Positions 16,295-57,910 of a DNA stretch of 64,000 nucleotides are shown here, one piece after another; the stretch's first letter is position 1, and the number at the start of each line of letters is the position of its first letter. This DNA comes from Arcicella rosea (GTDB lineage Bacteria > Bacteroidota > Bacteroidia > Cytophagales > Spirosomataceae): assembly GCF_014204325.1 (NCBI RefSeq), contig NZ_JACHKT010000026.1:1-64000 (forward strand). The letters are read 5' to 3'. The notes beneath the pieces were generated by a model. That model did no database searches, was not told where the DNA came from, and was given only the letters and a program-made list of their open reading frames with translations. Both the position numbers and the translations under genes were made by a program.

Positions 16295-16508
16295 ATCATT
16301 GGTTGTTTTAAATGTTGAACATGTATGGAATAAAGTAGATAATTAAAGTATTGATTTATAATAACTTAATCTTGAAATCTTTGTTTAAAGATAAGTTTTT
16401 TTTGAATATTTAGCTCAAATTTTTCTTTATAAAATTAATTTGGAATCACTCAGGCTAGTTTTATTGATGAATAATTTTGCTTTTTTTCTTGTTTACAAAA
16501 TTTTATTG

Positions 16509-16800
16509 TAGTGTAACAATGAATCATTGTAATACGGAATAATTGTAAAATAGTGTTGCAATGACTCATTGTAACACGTAAAAATTAAAATGTAGTATTA
16601 CAATAAATCATTGTTATACGTAAAAATTGTATTGCAGTATAACATTAGCTTATTGTTATACATATCAATTTTATTATAGTATAACAATGGCTAATTGTAA
16701 TACGTAAAAATTGTATTTTGATATAACAATAGCTCATTGTAACATGTAAAAACTATAAAATAGACTTACAATGGATTAATGTAACCCTATAAAATATTTT
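16509..16800. repeat. Seven-copy 42-bp palindromic tandem array
   Basis: Copies start at 16509, 16551, 16593, 16635, 16677, 16719 and 16761, all exactly 42 bp apart; the last is degenerate. Each contains an imperfect palindrome of the form GTATnACAAT-N4/5-ATTGTnATAC followed by an A+T-rich linker of about 17 bases (often CGTAAAAATTGTAT). Copies differ by substitutions but not by length. There are no variable spacers, so this is not a CRISPR array. Confidence 0.95.
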
Positions 16801-44224: not shown

Positions 44225-45577
44225 ATGCAAAGACGTCAATTTATTCAATCCACAGCGCTGGCTAGTACTGCTGCTCTTACAATTCCTAATTTTATTTTCG
44301 GTGCTAAACAAGAAGAAAAAAAGGTTCGCCTTGGTTTTATTGGTGTTGGACTTCGTGGAAGAAATCATCTCGATATGGCGATGTACCGTGACGACGTTGA
44401 AATTAATGCAATATGCGATATAGACCCAAATGCTATTGCTATTTCTTTAAAAATGATAAAAGACAAGGGAAGAAAAGAACCTGCTGTTTATCAAAAAAAT
44501 GACCGTGACTTTGAAAACATGGTTAAAAGAGACGATTTAGACGGAATTATTATCGCTACGCCTTGGGAATGGCACGTTCCGATGTCGATTGCTACAATGA
44601 AGGCTGGAAAATATGCAGGTGTAGAAGTATCAGCAACGGTTACTTTGCAAGAATCTTGGGATTTGGTGAATACTTTCGAGAAAACAGGTTCGCATTGTAT
44701 GATTTTGGAAAATGTTTGTTATCGTCGTGATGTGCTGGCGGTTTTAAACATGGTGCGTCAGAATCTTTTTGGCGAATTAATTCACTTGCAATGTGGCTAT
44801 CAACATGATTTACGAGGAGTAAAATTTAATGATGGAAAGCAAGCTTATGGCGGAGGGGTGGAATTTGGCGAAAAAGGTTTTTCTGAAGCCAAATGGCGTA
44901 CACAACACTCTGTTGATAGAAATGGAGATGTTTATCCGACGCACGGATTAGGCCCAGTGGCAGAAATGATTGATATTAACCGTGGAAATAGATTCCTTTC
45001 GCTTACTTCAACTGCCACAAAAGCAAGAGGTTTACATGATTATATTGTTAAAAAAGGCGGAGCCGATCACCCAAATGCTAAAGTGAAATTTAAACTAGGG
45101 GATGTGGTGACGACAGTCATAAAATGTGCCAACGGAGAAAGTATTCTGATTACGCATGATACCAATTTACCTCGTCCATACTCTTTAGGTTTCAGAGTAC
45201 AAGGCACAGAAGGTATCTGGACAGAAGATAACAAATCAATTTACTTAGAAAGTTTGGCAAAAAACCACGACCGTTGGGAGCCATTCAAAGAATATCAAGA
45301 TAAATACGACCATCCACTTTGGAAAGCCCACGCCAAAGATGCAGAAAACGCTGGTCATGGCGGAATTGATTATTTTGTGTTAAGAGCTTTTGTAGAATCT
45401 ATCAAAAGAAAGGTTGCACCACCGATTGATGTGTATGATGCAGCGGTTTGGTCGGCAATTAGTCCATTATCAGAGCTTTCAATCGCTAAAAACTCCGCCT
45501 CAGTAGAAATTCCAGACTTTACCAGAGGAAAATGGAAAACCAACAAACGTATTTTTGGATTAACAGATGAGTATTAG
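44225..45577 (+). CDS. GH109-type glycosidase (Gfo/Idh/MocA fold)
   Basis: 450 residues. A twin-arginine-like signal (MQRRQFIQSTALAS) targets it folded to the periplasm. The Rossmann NAD site is GFIGVGLRGRNHL, followed by ICDIDPNA. The C-terminal block GGIDYFVLRAFVESIKRK, PPIDVYDAAVWSAISPLSE and IPDFTRGKWKT is characteristic of GH109, a family with NAD-dependent alpha-N-acetylgalactosaminidase activity. The substrate is inferred from the family. It precedes a sugar kinase and nucleotidyltransferase pair, across about 390 bp of palindromic repeats. Confidence 0.88.
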   Translation: MQRRQFIQSTALASTAALTIPNFIFGAKQEEKKVRLGFIGVGLRGRNHLDMAMYRDDVEINAICDIDPNAIAISLKMIKDKGRKEPAVYQKNDRDFENMVKRDDLDGIIIATPWEWHVPMSIATMKAGKYAGVEVSATVTLQESWDLVNTFEKTGSHCMILENVCYRRDVLAVLNMVRQNLFGELIHLQCGYQHDLRGVKFNDGKQAYGGGVEFGEKGFSEAKWRTQHSVDRNGDVYPTHGLGPVAEMIDINRGNRFLSLTSTATKARGLHDYIVKKGGADHPNAKVKFKLGDVVTTVIKCANGESILITHDTNLPRPYSLGFRVQGTEGIWTEDNKSIYLESLAKNHDRWEPFKEYQDKYDHPLWKAHAKDAENAGHGGIDYFVLRAFVESIKRKVAPPIDVYDAAVWSAISPLSELSIAKNSASVEIPDFTRGKWKTNKRIFGLTDEY

Positions 45578-45667
45578 GGTTTAATTTGAAAATTTGAGGA
45601 TTTGAAGATTTGAAAATTGGTTTAAGGGTTTTTAAATAATAGATAATATGGAATATTCTTAGCTTAG

Positions 45668-45724
45668 AACCTCATCCCGTAGCGACGGTCGCCCCAGCCC
45701 CTTCTCCTGTAGAGAAGGGGAGCC
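45668..45724. repeat. Palindromic GGGGAGC-type element, left copy
   Basis: Begins AACCTCATCCC and contains the hairpin CCCCTTCTC (45698-45706) / GAGAAGGGG (45712-45720). An inverted relative lies at 45818-45857, and a second pair at 48068-48165. Confidence 0.85.
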
Positions 45725-45817
45725 GTTGGAGAAAATTTCTTATCAATTATCAGACACTTATACCCTTGTTTTTAGATTTTTCCAGTTTAGAGATGGGAAG
45801 CCAACTTTGATGCTTAA

Positions 45818-45857
45818 AGCTCCCCTCTCTGACGGAGAGGGGTTGGGGGTGAGGTCT
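45818..45857. repeat. Palindromic GGGGAGC-type element, inverted copy
   Basis: The hairpin CCCCTCTC (45822-45829) / GAGAGGGG (45835-45842), followed by TTGGGGGTGAGGTC, is the reverse-complement layout of the left copy. Confidence 0.85.
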
Positions 45858-45937
45858 TTTCACGCATTTACTTTCAAATTTTCAAACCAAATCACATTTT
45901 CAAATCTTCAAATTCTCAAACTTTCAAATTAAAACAT

Positions 45938-45945
45938 TATTTTTG
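45938..45945 (+). promoter_or_regulatory. -7 element of the GHMP kinase gene
   Basis: TATTTTTG matches TAnnTTTG exactly, 22 bases before the ATG at 45968; this spacing equals that seen for ispG. No clear -33 element is present. Confidence 0.5.
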
Positions 45946-45967
45946 CAGTAATTAATTACCGACATTA

Positions 45968-47044
45968 ATGAGTAATAAAATTAAAGTATCAACGCCAGGA
46001 AGAATTTGTCTTTTTGGCGAACATCAAGATTATCTAGGATTACCAGTAATTGCAGCAGCCATTTCTAAAAGAGTAACCATTACTGGAGAAAATAGAAATG
46101 ATGGAAAAGCGATTATACATTTACCTGATATAGAGGAGGAAATCAATTTTGAAATCTATCCAGAATTACCTTATTTACATAAAAGAGACTATTTTCGTTC
46201 GGCTTTAAATATTTTACAAAGACAAGGTTATACTTTTAAAAAAGGGTTGGAATGTACAGTGCAAGGAAATATTCCTATTAATTCAGGAACATCAAGTTCA
46301 TCTGCATTATTAGCCAACTGGATTCATTTTTTATCAAGAGTAGCTGATGAACCTAATCCGCTTACTGCTAACGAAATTGCTGAAATTGCTTACAGAGCCG
46401 AAGTAGTAGAGTTTAACGAAGCAGGAGGGATGATGGATCATTATTCAACCGCAGTTGGGAATGTTATTTATCTGGAATCAACGCCAGTAATTAAGGTAGA
46501 AACCCTGAAACCAACATTTGGAAGCTTTGTTTTAGGAGATTCTCTTGAACCAAAAGATACAGTTGGTATTTTAAAAAGAGTAAAATACGGTGTTTTAGAA
46601 GCTGTAGAGAAAATCAAAATAGCCTATCCTGATTTTTCTTTATTTACTGTTCAGCAAGAGGACACTAAAGAATTTGCTTCTTTAGTTACAAAAGAAGAAC
46701 TAGATTTAATTAAAGCCAATATTGATAATAGAGAAATTTTGATTGAAGCATTGGCATTGTTAAAGGCTAAAACATTGAATCATCAAAGATTTGGTGAATT
46801 ATTAAATCAACATCAGTTAAATTTACAAGCATTATTAAAAATATCAACTCCTAAAATTGATAGGATGTTAGCAGCAGCAAAGGCTTCAGGAGCATTTGGA
46901 GGTAAAATAAATGGTTCTGGTGGTGGTGGATGTATGTTTGTTTATGCTCCCGAAAACCCTGAGGAAGTTGCTAAAAGTATTGAAAATGAAGGAGGTAAAG
47001 CTTATGTCATTCAAATAGACGAAGGCACAAGCTTTGAAAATTAA
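45968..47044 (+). CDS. GHMP-family sugar kinase (galactokinase-like)
   Basis: 358 residues. GHMP kinase features are the substrate-side GRICLFGEHQDYLGLPV, the phosphate loop PINSGTSSSSALLA, and the C-terminal KINGSGGGGCMFVYAP. GEHQDY is a variant of the galactokinase GEHTDY motif. It would phosphorylate a sugar at C1, but the exact sugar is not determined. It is followed after 27 bases by a sugar nucleotidyltransferase gene, suggesting a salvage route from free sugar to NDP-sugar. A GH109 glycosidase gene upstream could supply the sugar. Confidence 0.87.
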   Translation: MSNKIKVSTPGRICLFGEHQDYLGLPVIAAAISKRVTITGENRNDGKAIIHLPDIEEEINFEIYPELPYLHKRDYFRSALNILQRQGYTFKKGLECTVQGNIPINSGTSSSSALLANWIHFLSRVADEPNPLTANEIAEIAYRAEVVEFNEAGGMMDHYSTAVGNVIYLESTPVIKVETLKPTFGSFVLGDSLEPKDTVGILKRVKYGVLEAVEKIKIAYPDFSLFTVQQEDTKEFASLVTKEELDLIKANIDNREILIEALALLKAKTLNHQRFGELLNQHQLNLQALLKISTPKIDRMLAAAKASGAFGGKINGSGGGGCMFVYAPENPEEVAKSIENEGGKAYVIQIDEGTSFEN

Positions 47045-47071
47045 CCAAACCAGCAAAACAAAAATCTTTAA

Positions 47072-47932
47072 ATGGCAAAATTATTAATCATGGCGGGCGG
47101 TATGTCGTCAAGAATGAAAAAAGCAGAAGGCAACGAAACCTTAGATTCCACATTGATTGAACAAGCAAATACACTTCCGAAAGGAATGATTGGTGTAGGA
47201 AAAGATGGTCGCCCATTTATGGATTATTTAATTTATAACGCTCATCGTGCAGGTTATACAGATGTATTGATTTTAAAAAACCCCAAAGACCACGTTACAA
47301 AACCTTATTATGATCAATTGGTTTCTGAAAATAAGGCTTGGGGAATTAATTTTAAATATGCTACTCAGCAAATCGCTCCCGACCGTGAGAAACCCGCTGG
47401 TACTGCCGACGCCATTCAACAAGCTTTAGAGCAAACACCTGAATGGAAAGGAGAAAGATTTACTGTGTGTAATTCAGATAATCTTTATTCTGTAAAAGTA
47501 CTTAGGCTATTAAGAGAAAACCCTGTTCAAAATGCAGTAGTATCTTATGAAAGTATCGCTTTAGGCGTAGCACCAGAAAGAGTAAAAGCATTTGCTGTAA
47601 TTAAAGCCGATGAAGAAAGCTATTTGGTAGAAATCATTGAAAAACCAAATGAAGAACAAATAGAATCTGCCAGAGATAAAAACGGAAAGATTGGTGTAAA
47701 CATGAATGTGTTCCATTTCAACTATGATGATATTCTGGAGTATGTCACTAAAGAGCCTTTTAACCCAGTACGTAACGAGCGTGAATTACCAAGTGCTGTA
47801 ATGAAGATGGCTAGAGAAAATCCGAAAAAAGTAATTACTGTACCAGTGGAGGAAAATGTTCCAGATTTAACATCAAAAGGAGATATTACCATTGTTCAGC
47901 AGTATTTAGTAGAGGAATTCGGAGACTTTTAA
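47072..47932 (+). CDS. Sugar-1-phosphate nucleotidyltransferase
   Basis: 286 residues of the NTP-transferase fold. The nucleotide-binding loop LLIMAGGMSSRM is separated from the conserved LPKGMIGVGKDGRPFMDYLI by a short insert, and the metal site is in VCNSDNLYSV. Ending EEFGDF. It would charge a sugar-1-phosphate with a nucleotide; the nucleotide and sugar are unknown. Paired with the GHMP kinase gene, 27 bases apart. Confidence 0.86.
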   Translation: MAKLLIMAGGMSSRMKKAEGNETLDSTLIEQANTLPKGMIGVGKDGRPFMDYLIYNAHRAGYTDVLILKNPKDHVTKPYYDQLVSENKAWGINFKYATQQIAPDREKPAGTADAIQQALEQTPEWKGERFTVCNSDNLYSVKVLRLLRENPVQNAVVSYESIALGVAPERVKAFAVIKADEESYLVEIIEKPNEEQIESARDKNGKIGVNMNVFHFNYDDILEYVTKEPFNPVRNERELPSAVMKMARENPKKVITVPVEENVPDLTSKGDITIVQQYLVEEFGDF

Positions 47933-48371: not shown

Positions 48372-49022
48372 CTTGCAAAGCCCGCTAATGATGAAGCAAG
48401 TGTGGGAAAGAATCTTGTGAAGCCCGCAGTTAATTGTGAAAGTGTGGAAGTGAAACTTGTGAAGCCCGCAGTTAATTGTGAAAGTGCGGGAAAGAAACTT
48501 GTGAAGCCCGCAGTTAATTGTGAAAGTGCGGGAAAGAAACTTGCGAAGCCCTCAGTTGATTGTGAAAATGCGGGAAAGAAACTTGTGAAGCCCTCAGTTG
48601 ATTGTGAAAGTACAGGAAAGAAACTTGTGAAGCTCGCAGTTAACTATGCAACGTATCAGTTGATTGTGAAATGATGGCAAAATATTTTGTGAAGTCCTCA
48701 GTTGATTGTGCAATGATGGGAAAATATTTTGTGAAGCCCTCAGATGATTGTGAAATGGTGGGAAAATATTTTGTGAAGCCCTCAGATGATTGTGAAATGG
48801 TGGGAAAATATTTTGTGAAGCCCTCAGATGATTGTGCAATGATGGGAAAATATTTTGTGAAGTCTTCAGATGATTGTGAAATGACGGGAAAATATTTTGT
48901 GAAGCCCTCAGATGATTGTGAAATGATGGGAAAATATTTTGTGAAGCCCTCAAGTGATTGTGAAATGAGTAAAGAGTATTCTGCGAAACCACCCAATAAC
49001 TATGCTAAAACCAATTTAAAAT
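48372..49022. repeat. Fifteen-unit 42-bp tandem array
   Basis: Units start at 48372, 48414, 48456, 48498, 48540, 48582 and 48624, then, after one 62-bp unit, at 48686, 48728, 48770, 48812, 48854, 48896, 48938 and 48980 (partial). The first group has the hairpin arms CCCGCA/TGCGGG; the second has CCCTCA and TGATGGG-type arms. Each unit also has a 16-base A-rich linker. Because 42 is a multiple of three, frames stay open on both strands, but none has a convincing start, and the 62-bp unit breaks the frame. Probably not coding. Confidence 0.9.
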
Positions 49023-49214: not shown

Positions 49215-50117
49215 ATGACCTCGTTACAAGAATCCAAACTAAGTATGTACCAAAGCGTGCAGTTGTTGTGTGCAAACAATCCTACAATTACTGCAAGCAA
49301 TGCTGCTTTTACAGAAGGACTCAGCGAATTAAATGCTAAAATTAGCGACATCCTCAATTTTGTCTCCACGGATATAAAACATACCAGTGGAATTACAAAC
49401 GACAAAACGGTAACCAAACACAATCTTTGCACAGTTGCTTCAGAAATCGCAGGATTTGTTTTTGCTTATGCCAATGTTGTTAAAAATGAAGTACTAAAAC
49501 AGGAGGTAAATTATACTTACAATGAGCTTAGGAGGCTTAGAGAAGATTTAATTCTCCCAACTGTTAAAATTATCTTCAATGCCACACAGGCAAATTTAGC
49601 AGCATTGGGTAGTTATGGCATAGATGTTATCAAATTACAAGAACTTGCCGATGCTATGAGTGCTTACACCAGTGCTTTGCCCTCAACAAAAATGACAAAA
49701 TCAGAAAAATCAAGTGTGGTTATTTCACTCAATAATCTCTTTAAGGAAACCGATGAGCTATTAAAGAACCGATTAGATAAATTGTTGGCACTTTTCAGCA
49801 AAGCCCATCCTGAGTTTGTAAATGCCTATAAAAGTATCAGACATGTAGATGCCCCAACCAAGACCACTACGCAAATCAAAGGAAATATCAGTGCAGATAA
49901 ACGTGGAACTTCAATAGCAGGAGCCAATATCACCCTTACAGGCAAAACAACCTACTCAGCCACAAGCGACGCCGAAGGAAACTTCATCTTCAAGCCCATT
50001 AGCTACGGCAAATATCAAGTAAACGTACAAGCAACAGGTTATCAAAGCCACACCGAACAGAATTACCTAGTAAAAAGAGGCGTTGTGAATAAGCTTGTTG
50101 TAGTGCTGAAAGAATAA
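49215..50117 (+). CDS. Helical protein with C-terminal carboxypeptidase-regulatory-like domain
   Basis: 300 residues, no signal peptide. The first 215 are helical with a coiled character (GLSELNAKISDILNFVSTDI, KLQELADAMSAYTSAL, NRLDKLLALFSKAHPE). The last 85 are a CarboxypepD_reg-like beta-sandwich (IKGNISADKRGTSIAGANIT, SDAEGNFIFKPISYGKYQV). No function is known to me. The 42-bp array ends 192 bases before its ATG, which parallels the array upstream of the fibronectin-like gene at 15674-16294. Two helical/beta-sandwich proteins next to such arrays suggests a linked system. Confidence 0.72.
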   Translation: MTSLQESKLSMYQSVQLLCANNPTITASNAAFTEGLSELNAKISDILNFVSTDIKHTSGITNDKTVTKHNLCTVASEIAGFVFAYANVVKNEVLKQEVNYTYNELRRLREDLILPTVKIIFNATQANLAALGSYGIDVIKLQELADAMSAYTSALPSTKMTKSEKSSVVISLNNLFKETDELLKNRLDKLLALFSKAHPEFVNAYKSIRHVDAPTKTTTQIKGNISADKRGTSIAGANITLTGKTTYSATSDAEGNFIFKPISYGKYQVNVQATGYQSHTEQNYLVKRGVVNKLVVVLKE

Positions 50118-50424: not shown

Positions 50425-52401
50425 ATGGCAATACTAATAGGATTAATAGTTTTTTTATTTTGTTTTATTAAAATCTTTTTAAAGCAGAATAATAAAAAAG
50501 CAATTATAAAAAAATACTTATCGTCTAAAAATGCTAGTTTGATTGAAAACTCATTAGACACAGAGTCTTTGTATAATAGAACACATAAAGCAAACGAAAA
50601 AATAAAAACTCTCAATATTTACTCAAGTGATGATTCAATTATTGATGTTTCAAGTTTGACGTCAAAAATTATCTATGAAAATACAACAAATGAAAATAAT
50701 GGTAATGTTCCTTATTGGAAACATCAGTATGTTTATTCATTTAATGAAATAAATTCTGCAACAGATAAGCAAAAAGAATTTTATTATAAATTCAAAAAAT
50801 GCTTTTTAAATTCAGAATACCTTGATTTAGAAGAGAATAGTAACTATTCATTTGTCTTAATGTATGATTTTTTAAGAGAATATGATAATGATATAGGTAA
50901 ATTGGAAAATCTATTCCTATTATTAGGAAGGTATTATCCCAAAACAAAATCTTACTGCAACACTTTATTGAATAAAAAGAAAGATGAAAGAAATAGGCTT
51001 AAAAATATTACTTCTCAATTTAACACAAGTGTATTTCAGAGTACTTATTCGCCTAATTATGAAGAAATTTATTGGAAATTAGGTGACAAATACAAAAAAC
51101 GACTTTCTCTAAATAATGAAGAAGTAACTTTATTAAATAAGCTTTGGAATCCTAATAATAACTTCTGTAATATAGAATTTTGTTTAGTGGAAGTATTACG
51201 ATTTTTCCTATTTACTATAAAAGAATTAAATGTTCTATACTTAGGACAAGGGTCTAGCCTTGAAATGGAACTCTTAGCAGTAGCAGATGTAATTGCTAAA
51301 AAACAATTCAAGTATAGAAAAGGAAGTGCAAATTATAAATATTGTATAGAATCTTCAATGAATGATATTTACAATAACATATTTAAACATTGTGAAAATA
51401 TAATTAGAGAATATTTTGGGCATAAGCGAAAAATAAATGTGGAGCTAAATTATGAGATTCCACTAATTAAAATTGAGTATGAAACTAGGATTATTGTAAA
51501 ATTACAAACATTATTACCTAGCCTAATTTCTAAAATTACACCGCCTGATGATGAAACAGAAATTGAGTTAAATTCTCAAAACACTACAAGATGGAAAATT
51601 AAGTTTGAAGAATTAACTACAAAGCATTCTAGTAGTCCAAAAAATTTTGTTGACTCAATTATTTTTCTAGGAAATCAAAATATTGAAAATCCATCAGTAG
51701 AAAATATATTTTTTGAAGCATCTAAATTTATAGCAAAATACGATAATGAATCAGCTCTTATACTTTATATATATTACCTATACTATGATTTAGTGTCAAC
51801 AGTGTTTGATAATAGACAGCTTACAAAAACTATTCAAAAAAGTTTATTTAAGACAAATGAACAGTTGCGTGATTTTGAAAAAATTGTTAGTGAATTGATT
51901 AAAAGTAAAGATTTGGAAAATGCTCTTAAAGAGGCTTCTAAAATCTATGAAATTAAAAGAAAAAAAATTCAACTTGATACAGATTCAATAAAAGAAGTAC
52001 AAAAACAGCACTCAGGAACTGTTGAACTTTTAAATGAATATCTTAAAGATGATTATGAAGATGAAACAATCACTATTAAGTCACAAGAAATAAATAATGA
52101 TGAGATTGAAATTGAGATAACTCCTAAAAATGAAAATAATAATAATTCGTCATACTTATCTGAGCTATCATTAAATCAAATTCAAATTGAAGCGTTGGAA
52201 TTATTTTTAAAAAGTAACCTTGTATTATTACAAAGCGAAATAGAAGTATTTGCAAAATTAAATGGCATTTTTAAAAATCAACTTATAGAAAGTATTAATG
52301 ATAATTGTTATGATGTTTTAGATGATATTCTAATAGAAGAGGATGACGAATACTATGCAATTAATTTAAATTATTTTCAAAAAATTACTGTATCATGTTA
52401 G
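50425..52401 (+). CDS. Membrane-anchored TerB-N/TerB-C-like protein
   Basis: 658 residues. An N-terminal membrane helix (MAILIGLIVFLFCFIKIFL) precedes a TerB-N-like domain (about 100-200: KHQYVYSFNEINSATDKQK, NSEYLDLEENSNYSFVLMYD, LGRYYPKTKSYCNTLL). A C-terminal TerB-C-like domain follows (SLNQIQIEALELF to LIEEDDEYYAINLNYF). The middle part is unassigned. TerB-related proteins occur in tellurite-resistance and phage-defence neighbourhoods, where they are thought to act at the membrane. The stop overlaps the next ATG by seven bases, so the three genes are one unit. A+T content looks higher than in the flanking core genes. Confidence 0.82.
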   Translation: MAILIGLIVFLFCFIKIFLKQNNKKAIIKKYLSSKNASLIENSLDTESLYNRTHKANEKIKTLNIYSSDDSIIDVSSLTSKIIYENTTNENNGNVPYWKHQYVYSFNEINSATDKQKEFYYKFKKCFLNSEYLDLEENSNYSFVLMYDFLREYDNDIGKLENLFLLLGRYYPKTKSYCNTLLNKKKDERNRLKNITSQFNTSVFQSTYSPNYEEIYWKLGDKYKKRLSLNNEEVTLLNKLWNPNNNFCNIEFCLVEVLRFFLFTIKELNVLYLGQGSSLEMELLAVADVIAKKQFKYRKGSANYKYCIESSMNDIYNNIFKHCENIIREYFGHKRKINVELNYEIPLIKIEYETRIIVKLQTLLPSLISKITPPDDETEIELNSQNTTRWKIKFEELTTKHSSSPKNFVDSIIFLGNQNIENPSVENIFFEASKFIAKYDNESALILYIYYLYYDLVSTVFDNRQLTKTIQKSLFKTNEQLRDFEKIVSELIKSKDLENALKEASKIYEIKRKKIQLDTDSIKEVQKQHSGTVELLNEYLKDDYEDETITIKSQEINNDEIEIEITPKNENNNNSSYLSELSLNQIQIEALELFLKSNLVLLQSEIEVFAKLNGIFKNQLIESINDNCYDVLDDILIEEDDEYYAINLNYFQKITVSC

Positions 52402-53708
52402 ACAATATTAAACCTAAAGAAGCAACATCAATTATTAACTCTCTAATTGGTGGTGTCGTTCCTAAAATTGGAGTTCAGCATATTACAGTTGGGCGTTCTG
52501 AAGAAATAAATGCAGTAGTCTCGGCATTAGAAGATGTAAAAAATGGACATAGCATGGTGAAATTTTGGATTGGGGATTTCGGGTCAGGAAAGTCCTTCAT
52601 GCTTCATCTGCTTAATACTGTAGCATTAAAACAAAAGTTTGTTGTAGCAAATGCTGACTTTACACCTGATAATCGCTTATATTCTAATGATGGCAAAGGA
52701 GTTGCCTTGTATTCTGCAATCATGGATAATGTATCTATACAAACAAAGCCAGAAGGAGGAGCATTACCTACCTTATTAGAAAAATGGATTGAACAGGTTA
52801 TAACTAAGACAGCACAAGAAAATAAAATTACGTTAACAGAAATTCGTAATGAACAATACTTAAATATTATTCAGACTAATATTATGAAGACAATTAATGA
52901 ACTTACTGATGTTGGTGGTTTTGATTTTGGTATGGTTGTAATGAAATATTATGAAGGATACATAACAGGTAATGAATCTTTAAGAAGAAATGCTTTAAAG
53001 TGGTTAAAGGGAGAGTATAGGACTAAAACAGAAGCAAAACAAGACTTAGAAGTTAGAGAAATTATCAATGATTTAAATTATTATGATATGCTTAAAAACT
53101 TCTGTAAGTTATTTGTAAATATGGGATATAGTGGCTTTATGGTGAACCTTGATGAAGCTATTAATCTATATAAAATTTCTACGTCTGTAATGAGAGAAAA
53201 AAATTATGAAAAAATTCTTACAATCTATAATGATTGCTTTCAAGGTAAAGTGGCAAACTTATTTATTAATTTTGCTGGGACAAAAGAAGTGCTTGAAAAT
53301 GAACGTAGAGGACTTTTTAGTTACAATGCGCTAAAGTCAAGGCTTTTAACAAATAAATTTGAAACGGGAGAACTTAGAGATTTTGCACAGCCTGTAATTC
53401 GCTTAATGCCACTCAATCACAATGAAATATTTGTATTACTTAAAAAATTAAAAGCAATATTTGATTATAATTATAAGACTGACATAGCTATAAGTGATAA
53501 CGAGATTCAGCTTTTCATGGAAGAGTTATTTAATAAACCAGGTGCTTCTGAATTTTTAACTCCGAGAGAAGTAATTAGAGATTTTTTAAATATTTTAAAT
53601 ATCATTCGCCAAAATCCAAAAGCAGATAAGAATAAACTTTTTGGAGAAATAGAAGTTTCAGATGAAAGACCTGATGAGACTTTATTAGACAGTATAGAAG
53701 AATTATAA
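52395..53708 (+). CDS. BrxD/DUF2791-like P-loop ATPase
   Basis: 437 residues. The Walker A motif is IGDFGSGKSFML (59-70) and a Walker B-like strand is FMVNLDEAINL near 235-250. IGGVVPKIGVQHITVGR at the N-terminus and FAGTKEVLENERRG later match the BREX ATP-binding (BrxD/DUF2791) group. In type 2 BREX, BrxD is paired with the helicase BrxHI; here the same ATPase-helicase pair appears without PglX or PglZ. Start and stop overlap both neighbours (ATG at 52395 inside the previous gene; TAATG at 53706-53710). Confidence 0.85.
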   Translation: MLDNIKPKEATSIINSLIGGVVPKIGVQHITVGRSEEINAVVSALEDVKNGHSMVKFWIGDFGSGKSFMLHLLNTVALKQKFVVANADFTPDNRLYSNDGKGVALYSAIMDNVSIQTKPEGGALPTLLEKWIEQVITKTAQENKITLTEIRNEQYLNIIQTNIMKTINELTDVGGFDFGMVVMKYYEGYITGNESLRRNALKWLKGEYRTKTEAKQDLEVREIINDLNYYDMLKNFCKLFVNMGYSGFMVNLDEAINLYKISTSVMREKNYEKILTIYNDCFQGKVANLFINFAGTKEVLENERRGLFSYNALKSRLLTNKFETGELRDFAQPVIRLMPLNHNEIFVLLKKLKAIFDYNYKTDIAISDNEIQLFMEELFNKPGASEFLTPREVIRDFLNILNIIRQNPKADKNKLFGEIEVSDERPDETLLDSIEEL

Positions 53709-55840
53709 TGTCATTTAATTTACTTTCTGAGCCAATACGGAAATTTATCCGTGATAAAGGTTGGGAGCAATTTCGACCAATTCAAACAGCTGCTATTTCT
53801 AAAATATTAGAGTCCAGCAATAACTTTATTTTAATATCTAGAACTGCATCTGGAAAAACAGAAGCTGCATTTTTGCCGATTCTTTCAAAGGTGAATTTTA
53901 GAGAGGAAGGCATTCAGGTACTTTATATTTCACCTTTAATTGCTTTAATAAATGACCAATTTAATCGTATAGAAGACTTATCAAAAAATCTAGATGTCAC
54001 TATAACTAAATGGCATGGTGAGGCAAATAAAACACAGAAGGAAAAATTAATTAAACAACCTAATGGTATTGTTTTAATTACTCCAGAATCATTGGAGGCA
54101 ATGTTTATAAATAAACCATTTAATGTAAAACTATTATTTTCAAATCTCAAATATGTTGTTATTGATGAAATACATTCTTTTATTGGAACAGATAGAGGAA
54201 TCCAATTACAATCAATTTTATCAAGATTAGAAAAAGAAAATAATAATTTATTTAGTGTAGTTGGATTATCTGCAACTATGAGTGAGGAAAATAGCTTTAG
54301 AGAAGTTAAAGAGTTTACGGGCAATGTAGATAAAACTAAAATATTAATTGATAGAACTCCTAAAAATATTAATGTTTTATTTCGTTTTTTCAAAAATGAA
54401 AAAGAAGAATTGTCTTTGGAACTATTAAAAGATTTATATAAAACAACTAAAGATAATAAAGTTTTAATCTTTCCAAATTCAAGAGGGAGGGCTGAAGAAG
54501 TAGCTGTAAAACTTAAAAAGATTTCCGAAAAAGTTAAAGGTCACTTAAATTATTTTTCACACCACTCATCTGTAGATAAAGAAGTAAGGGAATATGTCGA
54601 ATATTTTGCAAAAAATAATAGACAGAATTTTTGTATCGCTTGTACCTCCACATTGGAATTAGGAATAGATATAGGTACAGTTGATGATGTTATTCAAATA
54701 GATGCAACAAATAGTATTGCTTCATTAATTCAAAGAGTTGGAAGAAGCGGGAGAAAAGAAGGTAAAACTAGTAATTTGTATTTGTATGCTACAAATGAAT
54801 GGAGTTTACTTCAGTCAGTTGCTTGTTGGTTATTATATAAAGATGGTTTTATTGAGCCTCCACATAAAAATGTAAAACCTTATGATATTTTTATTCATCA
54901 GGCATTGTCAATAACTAAAGGACATTCAGGAATTAAATTAACAAATTTAATAAATCAACTTAAAGATAACTCGGCATTCAAATATATTGAAATCCTAGAA
55001 ATTGAAGAAATACTTTATCATTTAATTAAGATAGATTTTTTAGAAAAACTACAAGATGAAGTTATCATTGGAGTTGAAGGTGAAAAAGTAGTTAATAGTC
55101 GTGATTTTTATAGTGTATTTAAAACAGAGGAAAATTTTAAAGTTATAAATGCTGGTAACACAATTGGTGAAATTCCTTTTTCACCACAGATTGTTGAGGA
55201 TGAAAATATTTTACTTTCTGCCAAAATATGGAAAATAAAATTTGTAGATAACAAAACAAAAAAAATAGAAGTCATTCCAACTAAAGATGGTAAAAAACCA
55301 ATGTTCTTTGGCATTAGTGCTACAATCCATCAAAAAGTTAGAGAAAAAATGATGGAAGTTCTTTACAATCAGTCAAATTATGATTTTCTTGATGAATCAA
55401 GTTTAGATGAAATAGAAACTTTACAAAAAGACTTCTCTGTTTTTAAAATTCAAGATTTGCGCACTAATAGAATGTTACTAATTGCTGATAAGGATTTGAG
55501 ATTTTTTACATTTACAGGTACAAGAATTAACAGAACAATTCAGTTACTATTAAATGTTTCAAATGTAAAAAATATTTTAGAAGAGAGTAGTAGCTCATTT
55601 GATATTGAATTATCTAAAGATGAATTTATCTTGAAATGGAATGCCTTATCATCACTAATTTCTAATATTGATGCCCATATTTATAATCTTTTATCTACAC
55701 ATAGTTCATTATTAGGGTTCTCAAAATGGGGTAAATACTTGCCAAATAAATATCAAGTTGAAATACTAAAAAATAATTACTTTGATATTGAAAATACAAA
55801 AGAGTTTATAACAAAAATAAATATAGTTTATAATAAATAA
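53708..55840 (+). CDS. Lhr/BrxHI-like SF2 DNA helicase
   Basis: 710 residues. Superfamily 2 helicase motifs in order: Q-type FRPIQTAAI (22-30), Walker A RTASGKTEAAF (ASGKT at 47-51), DEIH (153-156), GLSATM near 195, TSTLELGIDIGT and QRVGRSGR near 343. The arrangement resembles Lhr-type and BrxHI helicases. The long C-terminal half is not assigned. It probably unwinds or translocates on DNA with the upstream ATPase and TerB-like protein in a defence or repair function. Its start is coupled to the ATPase stop. Confidence 0.87.
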   Translation: MSFNLLSEPIRKFIRDKGWEQFRPIQTAAISKILESSNNFILISRTASGKTEAAFLPILSKVNFREEGIQVLYISPLIALINDQFNRIEDLSKNLDVTITKWHGEANKTQKEKLIKQPNGIVLITPESLEAMFINKPFNVKLLFSNLKYVVIDEIHSFIGTDRGIQLQSILSRLEKENNNLFSVVGLSATMSEENSFREVKEFTGNVDKTKILIDRTPKNINVLFRFFKNEKEELSLELLKDLYKTTKDNKVLIFPNSRGRAEEVAVKLKKISEKVKGHLNYFSHHSSVDKEVREYVEYFAKNNRQNFCIACTSTLELGIDIGTVDDVIQIDATNSIASLIQRVGRSGRKEGKTSNLYLYATNEWSLLQSVACWLLYKDGFIEPPHKNVKPYDIFIHQALSITKGHSGIKLTNLINQLKDNSAFKYIEILEIEEILYHLIKIDFLEKLQDEVIIGVEGEKVVNSRDFYSVFKTEENFKVINAGNTIGEIPFSPQIVEDENILLSAKIWKIKFVDNKTKKIEVIPTKDGKKPMFFGISATIHQKVREKMMEVLYNQSNYDFLDESSLDEIETLQKDFSVFKIQDLRTNRMLLIADKDLRFFTFTGTRINRTIQLLLNVSNVKNILEESSSSFDIELSKDEFILKWNALSSLISNIDAHIYNLLSTHSSLLGFSKWGKYLPNKYQVEILKNNYFDIENTKEFITKINIVYNK

Positions 55841-55944
55841 CTAAGAAATTTATTGAAAGAGAACATGATATATAAACACAAATTCATTATAACCAAGTAG
55901 AAATAAAGTATTAAAATCAATTTAAAGCCATTTGTTATACCTGT

Positions 55945-56310
55945 TATACCCGCTTCGGGGTCTAATTGTGTTTTTGGAGCTTTTTTATTTTCTAATCAAG
56001 TTTAATCCTTTCAGGATTGTGTGATGAATCTGAATTAATATCTTAAAAAGTATTACAAGCCATTTTAAAAAATAATCATGCGACAGCAATTTTCCGAAAT
56101 TCCGCTGTTTGAGCGGAGCGAGTTTCGGAATTTCTTGACTTTCTTTTGTTACTTTTCTTGTGTCAAGACAAGAAAAGTAAGGTCTATGAATAAGGAATAG
56201 ACATTTTAAAGATAATAATTTAATAAATCATATATTAGACCCACTTCGGGGTCTGATTTGTGGTGTAGATTTAATTTTTATCTATAAACATTTAATCCCT
56301 TCGGGATTAG
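55945..56310. repeat. Cluster of small palindromes
   Basis: Four tetraloop-like hairpins: CCCGCTTCGGGG near 55950, AATCCTTTCAGGATT near 56005, AGACCCACTTCGGGGTCT near 56238 and TAATCCCTTCGGGATTA near 56292. Between them, nested repeats TTCCGAAA/TTTCGGAA and GCT/AGC span about 56092-56130, and ACTTTTCTTGT (56151-56161) pairs with ACAAGAAAAGT (56168-56178). Confidence 0.75.
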
Positions 56311-56360
56311 AAAATGTAAAACAATATAATCCTTTAAAAGAAAGTATTGCTTACTAAAAA

Positions 56361-56406
56361 AAATAAAAGAGCCTTGACAGTGTTATCTGTCAAGGCTCTT
56401 TTATTT
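56361..56406. terminator. Terminator of the S10 peptidase gene
   Basis: A perfect 20-bp stem, AAATAAAAGAGCCTTGACAG (56361-56380) with its complement (56387-56406) over a 6-nt loop, with A/T tracts on both sides. It abuts the peptidase stop at 56408. Confidence 0.9.
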
Positions 56407-56407
56407 T

Positions 56408-57910
56408 TTACTTTAGAGTCTCTTCATAAAACTCATCGGCTTCTTTTTTGAGTTTAATCAATGAAGCTTTATGAATATACATCATGTGTCCAGATTCAAA
56501 GTAAGTAAATTTAACGTTTTTACGTTGTTCTGGTCGCAAACCCATGTGTGAAACTACATATTCGGCCGCAAAATAGGGCGTTGCCAAATCGTAATAAGCA
56601 GAAGGAATCCATACTTTTAAATAAGGATTTTTTGCCATCGCTTGTCTTAACGTTTCTGCTACATTCAAGTACTTGTTTTGTACATTATTATAATTCCAAG
56701 GCTGAACACGTCCCGTCAACATCAAATAAGGTAAATCGTTTTCATACTTCAAATCCTGACGTAAATAGTTATTCACCGTCGTAGAATAAGGACCAGAGAT
56801 AGTAGCATCTAAACTTGGGTCGAATTCATAACGTTCACCAACATTATCAAAGTCAATACCAGTAAAACGACCGTCCAAACGTCCAGCAGTTTTGCCTTCA
56901 TCACGCAATAATTCTTTAGTGAATCTGCTAATTTCAATACGAAGGTTTGCATTTTTAATAAAGGTTTCTGAAATACCCGTAAGCTTACTTAATTTCTGTA
57001 CAATCTTTTGTTTTTCGTCTTCTGGCAACAAATCACCTTTCATTAAAGCGGTAGCATATTCATTTAATGCAAAATGTTCAGCCTCACGCAAAGTTTTTTG
57101 TAAGTCACCTTGATATTCTTTAGCGATTTTCTTGTGATACCAAGCCATTGCGGTATAAGTAGGTATGTAAAGAATGTTCGGTAAATCATTTCCTTTGTCG
57201 AAAAGTATCGTTTGGAAATTCAACACCGAAGAAATCAACGAAATACCATTGATATACATATTGAATTTATCTTGAAGATAACCTGAAAGTCCCGCAGAGC
57301 GAGTAGTACCATAACTTTCGCCCGCTAAAAACTTAGGCGATGACCAACGACCGTTCTTTACAGTATATAATCTGATAAATTCTCCGACAGATTCAATGTC
57401 TTCTACGTATCCCAAAAACTGTTTTGGGTCTTCACCTTGCACAGCACGGCTATAACCAGTATTAATTGGGTCGATAAATACCAAATCAGTTTTATCTAAC
57501 CAAGAATATTCGTTATTAATGTACTTATAAGGAGGTGCTAAAGCATCGCCTTTGTCGGACATTAAGATTCTTTTAGGGCCAATCGCACCCATGTGCAACC
57601 AAACCGAAGCAGAACCTGGCCCACCATTGAAAGTATAAGTGATAGGTCGTTTAGTAATATCAGTAACGCCATCTTTGGTATAAGCAATAAAGAATACATT
57701 GCCTTTAGCTTTGCCAGCTTCATCTTTTAAAACCATATAGCCAGTAGTGGCAGTATATGAAATCGCTTGACCATTAATAACAGTTTGATGTTTTGTAACA
57801 ACTGGAGCAGGAGGGGGGAGAACAGGAGTATTAAGTTTTGATTCAGCCTTTTCTTGGGCAAAAGAACTGATGGAACAGAGCATTAATAAAAGTAAGAAAT
57901 GTTTTTTCAT
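56408..57910 (-). CDS. Serine carboxypeptidase, peptidase family S10
   Basis: 500 residues. A signal peptide (KKHFLLLLMLCSISSFAQ) sends it to the periplasm or beyond. Family S10 features are the oxyanion segment FNGGPGSAS (94-102), nucleophile S199 in GESYG, D441 in SAYYDLATPY and H475 in ESGHMM. S10 enzymes remove C-terminal residues, with an acidic pH optimum. The nearby gene is divergent, and a 20-bp terminator follows the stop. It is a single-gene unit. Confidence 0.93.
   Translation of the reverse strand: MKKHFLLLLMLCSISSFAQEKAESKLNTPVLPPPAPVVTKHQTVINGQAISYTATTGYMVLKDEAGKAKGNVFFIAYTKDGVTDITKRPITYTFNGGPGSASVWLHMGAIGPKRILMSDKGDALAPPYKYINNEYSWLDKTDLVFIDPINTGYSRAVQGEDPKQFLGYVEDIESVGEFIRLYTVKNGRWSSPKFLAGESYGTTRSAGLSGYLQDKFNMYINGISLISSVLNFQTILFDKGNDLPNILYIPTYTAMAWYHKKIAKEYQGDLQKTLREAEHFALNEYATALMKGDLLPEDEKQKIVQKLSKLTGISETFIKNANLRIEISRFTKELLRDEGKTAGRLDGRFTGIDFDNVGERYEFDPSLDATISGPYSTTVNNYLRQDLKYENDLPYLMLTGRVQPWNYNNVQNKYLNVAETLRQAMAKNPYLKVWIPSAYYDLATPYFAAEYVVSHMGLRPEQRKNVKFTYFESGHMMYIHKASLIKLKKEADEFYEETLK

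Follow-up and report, generated by a model that had tools for sequence, protein, structure and literature searches.

What is the three-gene operon at positions 50425-55840 of a 64,000-nucleotide stretch of the Arcicella rosea genome (contig NZ_JACHKT010000026.1, positions 1 to 64,000; hereafter the window), and how does it relate to defence systems already described? An earlier note, made from the sequence alone, had read it as a candidate anti-phage system. Family membership and gene order in the sequence show that the operon is a Shango anti-phage system; the defence-type assignment thus stands and the status of a new candidate does not, as the PADLOC matches and the gene order of Pseudomonas aeruginosa PA14 both lead to Shango. 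The trio is the Bacteroidota version of a published system and no new kind of system, and anti-phage activity of its lineage is predicted. What is new, as judged by profile searches, is a branch of Shango whose first protein, SngA, shows no TerB domain. The three genes are:

50425..52401, + strand: sngA-like gene, 658 amino acids; N-terminal membrane helix, disordered linker, helical region and TerB_C domain (PADLOC SngA, E 1.2e-40, and AlphaFold model)
52395..53708, + strand: sngB gene, 437 amino acids; BrxC/BrxD-family ATPase (PF10923, E 1.3e-146; PADLOC SngB, E 2.1e-166)
53708..55840, + strand: sngC gene, 710 amino acids; superfamily 2 (SF2) helicase of the BrxHI kind (PADLOC SngC, E 1.1e-207; BrxHI, E 1.2e-132)

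The open reading frames (ORFs) overlap by 7 bp (sngA/sngB) and 1 bp (sngB/sngC), as the note had described. Its impression of an A+T-rich region also holds: the G+C fraction of the trio is 0.267 (sngA 0.243, sngB 0.303, sngC 0.268) against 0.331 for the window, and fewer than 1% of trio-sized sliding windows are as low.

The first question is one of identity. The earlier note had staked its reading on TerB and BrxD-family matches, and profile searches recover one of each: Pfam identifies TerB_C (3.3e-25) in the first protein and BrxC_BrxD (1.3e-146) in the second, together with DEAD and Helicase_C in the third. The proposed BrxD-like ATPase and BrxHI-like helicase of anti-phage type are thus confirmed by Pfam, PADLOC and co-occurrence. 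The best PADLOC matches are SngA (138.7 bits), SngB and SngC, and the closely coupled genes follow the A-B-C order of Shango. According to PMC10250203, the PA14 operon encodes, in this order, a TerB-like protein, an ATPase and a DEAD/DEAH helicase; cloned into strain PAO1, it lowered plating by a modest 10-100-fold for many phages, not all, and gave generally strong protection in liquid. The same source states that Shango was found earlier in Escherichia coli, where it is also protective, and its description of the system names a TerB domain. The window operon shares with the E. coli and PA14 systems its three genes, their order and a PADLOC match for each protein; it differs in that its SngB is only 37-43% identical to that of 26 of the 27 canonical loci compared, in that SngA of its lineage carries no recognisable TerB_N or TerB, and in that some sister loci add a gene encoding a TerB-BRCT protein. 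The PADLOC SngA score is likewise lower than in two canonical members scanned (266 and 300 bits). Because the TerB core is not universal even in canonical Shango, we retain Shango membership and call this copy a variant.

The ATPase and helicase are of the same families as the adjacent BrxD and BrxHI genes of type 2 bacteriophage exclusion (BREX), and the operon could be a decayed or partial type 2 BREX system in which these two genes are left after loss of PglX, PglZ, PglW and BrxC. Placement of SngB in Pfam BrxC_BrxD, the strong BrxHI match of SngC and the presence of one archaeal relative near a gene annotated as BREX-5 PglZ (upstream of a haloarchaeal Shango operon; L042:1-1821) speak for such a history. 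The Shango models, however, win by a wide margin (PADLOC SngB 552 bits against BrxD 141 bits, E 1.2e-41; SngC 690 bits against BrxHI 442 bits), the window SngB scores 142.6 bits with the NCBIfam BrxD equivalog NF033438, whose cut-off is 350, its partner is a TerB_C protein, and the trio stays together in 118 of 125 loci. No PADLOC-recognised BREX partner occurs among the 10 neighbouring window proteins scanned at E 1e-5, in keeping, for these neighbours, with a system lacking the BREX genes; the search for PglX and PglZ extended no further than these 10 proteins. We regard a BREX remnant as highly improbable. Other helicase systems are more distant. SngC shares its SF2 core with Lhr and the ligase-associated DEXH helicases, and differs from them in its score with TIGR04121 (1e-75, 255 bits, cut-off 850), its length of 710 amino acids and its operon with SngA and SngB. 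Hachiman HamAB and Druantia DruE are likewise defence SF2 helicases, but in Hachiman the helicase is paired with the nuclease HamA, and neither Pfam nor PADLOC recognises a nuclease or methylase in the window trio.

Does the trio recur as a unit, as the earlier note had supposed it should? Within the genus, the SngB model matches 1 of 8 genomes, that of the window itself. It matches 16 of 390 genomes of the order (13 strongly and 3 weakly, the latter in frames above 1,700 amino acids) and 22 of 395 genomes of the phylum (two much more weakly, at E 1.0e-52 and 4.7e-29), the order and phylum samples having genomes in common. A tblastn search with SngB returned 689 plasmid records, three of them at 60% identity or more, and SngC matched 52 at E 1e-40, for which reason many of the 689 may represent other BrxD-like ATPases. 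No SngB relatives were found in phage records or in the viral contigs searched. Together with the best 80, by closeness, of 156 relatives from a scan of species genomes, this yielded 126 loci including the window, or 125 after setting aside L035, half of a circular plasmid without a whole SngB. All three genes stand together in 118 of these 125 loci, mostly with overlapping ends, which is more than a chance association. For sngA and sngC the rule goes by position, accepting a long ORF next to sngB on the same strand; in at least one locus (L071) a contig end truncates the first gene. Because certain genomes entered the set twice, the 118 cases are not all independent. The seven incomplete loci comprise L036, which is the other half of the plasmid of L035; L098, L119 and L157, with sngB near a contig end; L089 and L155, whose third ORF is not intact by the rule used; and L086, the one canonical locus outside the 37-43% range, which encodes a different protein of 964 amino acids, 24% identical to the window SngB.

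These loci fall into two sets. Leaving the window aside, 97 loci have an SngB 74.8-92.7% identical to the window copy and 27 have one at 24-43%, with none between; the gap also holds for loci that came out of the searches of the order, the phylum and plasmids, and not just for the species-genome loci picked by closeness. The close set forms one clade with a long stem in midpoint-rooted trees of both SngB (88 tips, support 0.75) and SngC (85 tips, support 0.82), and consists mainly of Bacteroidota, with a few metagenome-assembled contigs labelled otherwise. On these sequence comparisons, the window copy is part of a separate Shango lineage found mainly in Bacteroidota. Across 81 trios, median identity to the window is 83.8% for SngB, 62.2% for SngC (53-77% in the lineage) and 45.1% for SngA, the most divergent of the three, and the three identities covary (Spearman 0.82-0.87, n=81).

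What, then, sets SngA of this lineage apart? Two of its segments can be placed directly on the sequence:

50425..50481, + strand: N-terminal hydrophobic helix, SngA residues 1-19, predicted membrane anchor (mean hydropathy 2.89; AlphaFold model)
51925..52386, + strand: TerB_C, SngA residues 501-654 (Pfam E 3.3e-25; AlphaFold model)

The AlphaFold model (mean predicted local distance difference test, pLDDT, 81.5; predicted template modelling score, pTM, 0.55) shows a helix at residues 2-33, low confidence at 29-68, 77-92 and ~539-573, and confident all-helical stretches followed by TerB_C. Within the latter, residues 585-646 are modelled in the order helix-strand-helix-helix-strand-strand, which suggests a winged-helix-like fold. 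Against the PDB, the model has 71 matches at E <=10, all of them weaker than 0.001.

TerB_C is present in every SngA scanned by Pfam (23/23 and 63/63, the window being in both sets). At Pfam E 0.01, TerB_N and TerB are found in 0 of 63 lineage members, these being 63 of 86 distinct lineage SngA sequences. Among canonical SngA (10 of the 11 in alignment A1, scanned singly), TerB_N and TerB_C occur in 10/10 and TerB (PF05099) in 8/10, seven of these eight at 1.1e-4 or better and one at 0.0091, with five above the Pfam cut-off; the two without a TerB match are from Paenibacillus. The claim that the first protein has both TerB-N-like and TerB-C-like ends therefore survives for the C-terminus. For the N-terminus, the window SngA has no Pfam TerB_N (PF13208) match at E up to 1, and profile comparison is no more than suggestive: it recovers TerB_C at E 4.3e-9, and hhalign aligns the N-terminal region colinearly with canonical TerB_N (SIIDV...YW against LIDP...YW), and this pairing has the lowest E-value of 16 comparisons (0.012), yet a probability of just 3.5%. 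A decayed TerB_N is possible. A hidden TerB in the middle of SngA was considered and rejected, with no PDB match at 0.001 and no TerB by profile comparison. Since the PADLOC SngA model aligns across residues 62-655, the middle may still correspond to canonical SngA in a strongly diverged form.

Could the TerB core be encoded elsewhere? PF05099 has no match in the window genome (99.99% complete), in a search that does detect TerB at the canonical SngA site of another genome (G314). Of the 12 lineage genomes searched, 7 have a Pfam TerB somewhere (G008, G037, G038, G239, G301, G307 and G363), and the two congeners in the search have none; a general absence of TerB from lineage genomes is accordingly rejected. 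PF05099 also misses divergent copies, as in genome G380, which has a TerB-BRCT gene and no PF05099 match. We infer that the TerB core is dispensable in this lineage or supplied in trans, the window copy being without a recognisable one. The same searches bear on whether the operon might serve a Ter-type response to tellurite or general stress, a reading to which the TerB_C match lends some colour. As Pfam TerB is found neither in SngA nor elsewhere in the window genome, and no Ter role is known to us for ATPase and helicase partners, it is hardly credible.

The genes beside some lineage loci supply a candidate for such a separate TerB. These TerB-BRCT genes encode ~300 amino acids, with a BRCT domain (Pfam 8.6e-10) and two repeated helical units. 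Their profile matches 29 of 98 lineage loci (the window is counted and has no match itself) and 0 of 27 canonical loci, a contrast that is indicative, given that Flavobacterium and Chryseobacterium are heavily represented in the lineage sample and that some of the canonical loci are short. Twenty-four matches are full-length, four cover the C-terminal two thirds (L019, L027, L159 and L165) and one the BRCT domain only (L122); L082/L135 and L027/L159 are duplicates. The gene lies upstream on the same strand within ~50 bp in 20 of the 29. By hhalign, its second unit matches the TerB core of canonical SngA with E 2.9e-6 and probability 88 (score 38.6, where 20 column shuffles reach no more than 24.4) and the first with probability 37 (score 26.7, shuffles up to 18.7). 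A Pfam TerB match is weak (E 0.015) and found in 1 of 3 such proteins, and the structure prediction is of low quality (pLDDT 62.6) and matches no PDB chain at E 0.001. The gene is not confined to Shango: among 380 genomes of the order, 7 have full-length copies (E <1e-80), and only G380 of these has Shango. Being without Shango in 6 of these 7 cases, it is at most a recurrent accessory. TerB-BRCT genes stand in varied neighbourhoods in six genomes without an SngB match (L184-L189, L210-L215). The window genome has no full-length copy, and TerB-BRCT presence shows no correlation with an SngA anchor (Fisher p 0.81). Among the open-literature papers listed by our searches we found no account of the TerB-less lineage or of this neighbour, which does not prove absence. 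Separately, related genes adjoin Shango in six loci (L030, L032, L103, L112, L118 and L122, where L030/L112 and L032/L118 are the same genomes), and two of them resemble, by eye and not by family search, a 3'-5' exonuclease with a BRCT end.

Taken at its boldest, this pattern would mean that the Bacteroidota lineage has uncoupled motor from sensor, with SngB strongly and SngC moderately conserved, SngA shedding TerB and swapping its N-termini, and the role of TerB moved to a TerB-BRCT adaptor or lost, as here. We put this forward tentatively, at somewhat less than an even chance, for it is weakened by the presence of TerB in 7 of 12 lineage genomes and by the failure of PF05099 to detect the G380 gene.

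The motors themselves are well preserved, and the motifs named in the earlier note were all located:

52572..52595, + strand: Walker A, GDFGSGKS, SngB residues 60-67 (G60, G63, G65 and K66 in 113/113 aligned SngB)
53148..53159, + strand: Walker B-like LDEA, SngB residues 252-255 (D253 and E254 in 113/113 aligned SngB)
54164..54175, + strand: DEIH, SngC residues 153-156 (D153, E154 and H156 in 112/112 aligned SngC)
54731..54754, + strand: QRVGRSGR, SngC residues 342-349 (Q342, R343, G345, R346, G348 and R349 in 112/112 aligned SngC)

Because these key Walker and helicase residues are invariant, both motors are expected to be active. The best solved structures matching SngC, 5v9x and 7lhl, are listed as ATP-dependent DNA helicases, and we take both to be Lhr; for SngB, phmmer finds no solved relative at E 0.01. 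In a comparative BREX study (PMC12839542), BrxD is an ORC-Cdc6 AAA+ ATPase suggested as a possible loader of BrxHI, whose C-terminus resembles that of Lhr, and a published tree places SngC, BrxHI, DruE and DpdJ in one helicase clade (PMC12278908).

How might such a system act? A 2026 review gives the Shango mechanism as unknown (PMC12926258). From the family membership, gene order, intact motifs and co-occurrence documented here, and by analogy with BrxD and BrxHI, we infer a loader-and-helicase mechanism, including its steps of DNA loading, sensing, tethering and phage-DNA fate. SngB, as a BrxD-type AAA+ ATPase, would assemble on DNA and load or switch on SngC, a BrxHI-type SF2 helicase, which would unwind or disrupt invading or replicating phage DNA. 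SngA would serve as an adaptor, its winged-helix-like TerB_C and helical middle contacting the motor or DNA, and its fast-changing N-terminus, here a membrane helix, tethering it or sensing infection. With no nuclease or methylase recognised in the trio, phage DNA might only be remodelled, or be passed to host or neighbouring nucleases. That the operon is Shango and works in this way is the best joint explanation we have, and a probable one, with ample room for doubt.

Several observations weigh against it. Pfam recognises neither TerB_N nor the TerB core named in the published description in any lineage SngA scanned; TerB occurs elsewhere in several lineage genomes; the helicase-loading step is drawn from analogy; the 10 neighbouring window proteins scanned have no PADLOC match of any kind at E 1e-5, and hence reveal no defence island. 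Tethering, too, is far from constant. The hydrophobic helix that the earlier note had seen in the window copy is there, but it does not define the system: a hydrophobic segment precedes the conserved DDSIIDV-like motif in 50 of 86 distinct lineage SngA, and the other 36, many of which start at or near the motif, show no anchor, which indicates that tethering is not essential in general. In 11 cases without a recognised motif the rule takes the first 60 residues, and it misses at least one SngA with a segment further in (L108); a looser rule gives 53 of 86 lineage and 18 of 24 canonical SngA. Since N-termini vary between a membrane helix, SH3 (SH3_3, 4/63), TM2 (2/63) and none, membrane attachment is, from the sequences, frequent and achieved with unlike modules, and not universal. 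The same variety bears on abortive infection through the membrane, in which SngB and SngC would sense phage DNA and anchored SngA would be the membrane-damaging effector. The several kinds of hydrophobic N-terminus favour this, but the operon is still kept where SngA has no anchor, as in many Chryseobacterium, and one short helix is probably unlike a pore-type effector; we consider it unlikely.

Is the operon, finally, an acquired element or part of the household? The left flank (44225-47932) is present at five congener loci and is followed there by other genes, and the putative S10-type peptidase and aminotransferase pair is found at two congener loci, on another contig, again followed by other genes. 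No clean empty site could be demonstrated in the congeners, whose loci show a synteny break and no exact junction. Patchy distribution, lineage plasmid copies, low G+C and this break in gene order support horizontal gain of the operon. The repeats said to flank the region are real and do not delimit it: a 42-bp tandem repeat forms two adjoining arrays (48398-48643 and 48656-48968; 5.9 and 7.5 copies) that end ~1.4 kb upstream of the operon, with one ORF in between, and contig C8 of the window genome carries the same family at two more sites, for which reasons we rejected these repeats as island ends. The intervening ORF (49215-50117, 300 amino acids) has just partial, weak matches in the other seven genus genomes and looks lineage-specific. 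Downstream of the operon lie a 24-bp direct repeat (55944-55967 and 56235-56258, 88% identical, containing CTTCGGGG) and, just after the putative peptidase gene, a perfect 23-bp, terminator-like inverted repeat (56358-56409). Elsewhere in the window there is a tandem array with 42- and 84-bp periods (16497-16784), and ARAGORN finds no transfer RNA.

Around relatives, PD-(D/E)XK nuclease and UvrD-helicase genes directly follow a Sulfitobacter Shango operon (L021:6015-11745), and metallophosphoesterase, SMC ATPase and NurA genes follow an archaeal one (L022:11739-17229). Restriction, nuclease, recombination or BREX genes by a few relatives fit a DNA-handling or defence role, read locus by locus. 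The recombination genes, and the BRCT domain adjoining some loci, are also what a housekeeping DNA-repair or replication-restart module would lead one to expect, its ATPase and helicase handling stalled or broken DNA ends. Such a module sits poorly with a distribution of one in eight genus genomes and 13 strong matches among 390 in the order, with three lineage plasmid records at 60% identity or more, with low G+C at a synteny break, and with the phage protection reported for the same system (PMC10250203), and we hold it to be rather improbable.

For Shango as a family, a lineage that keeps its ATPase (75-93% identity) and its helicase (53-77%) without a recognisable TerB amounts to a natural deletion experiment, one that bears on how the engine of Shango is divided from its exchangeable sensors. 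The lineage also directs attention to Bacteroidota hosts that are tractable in the laboratory, and to a possible fourth component. If motor and sensor have indeed been uncoupled here, the TerB domain would not be essential to how Shango works.

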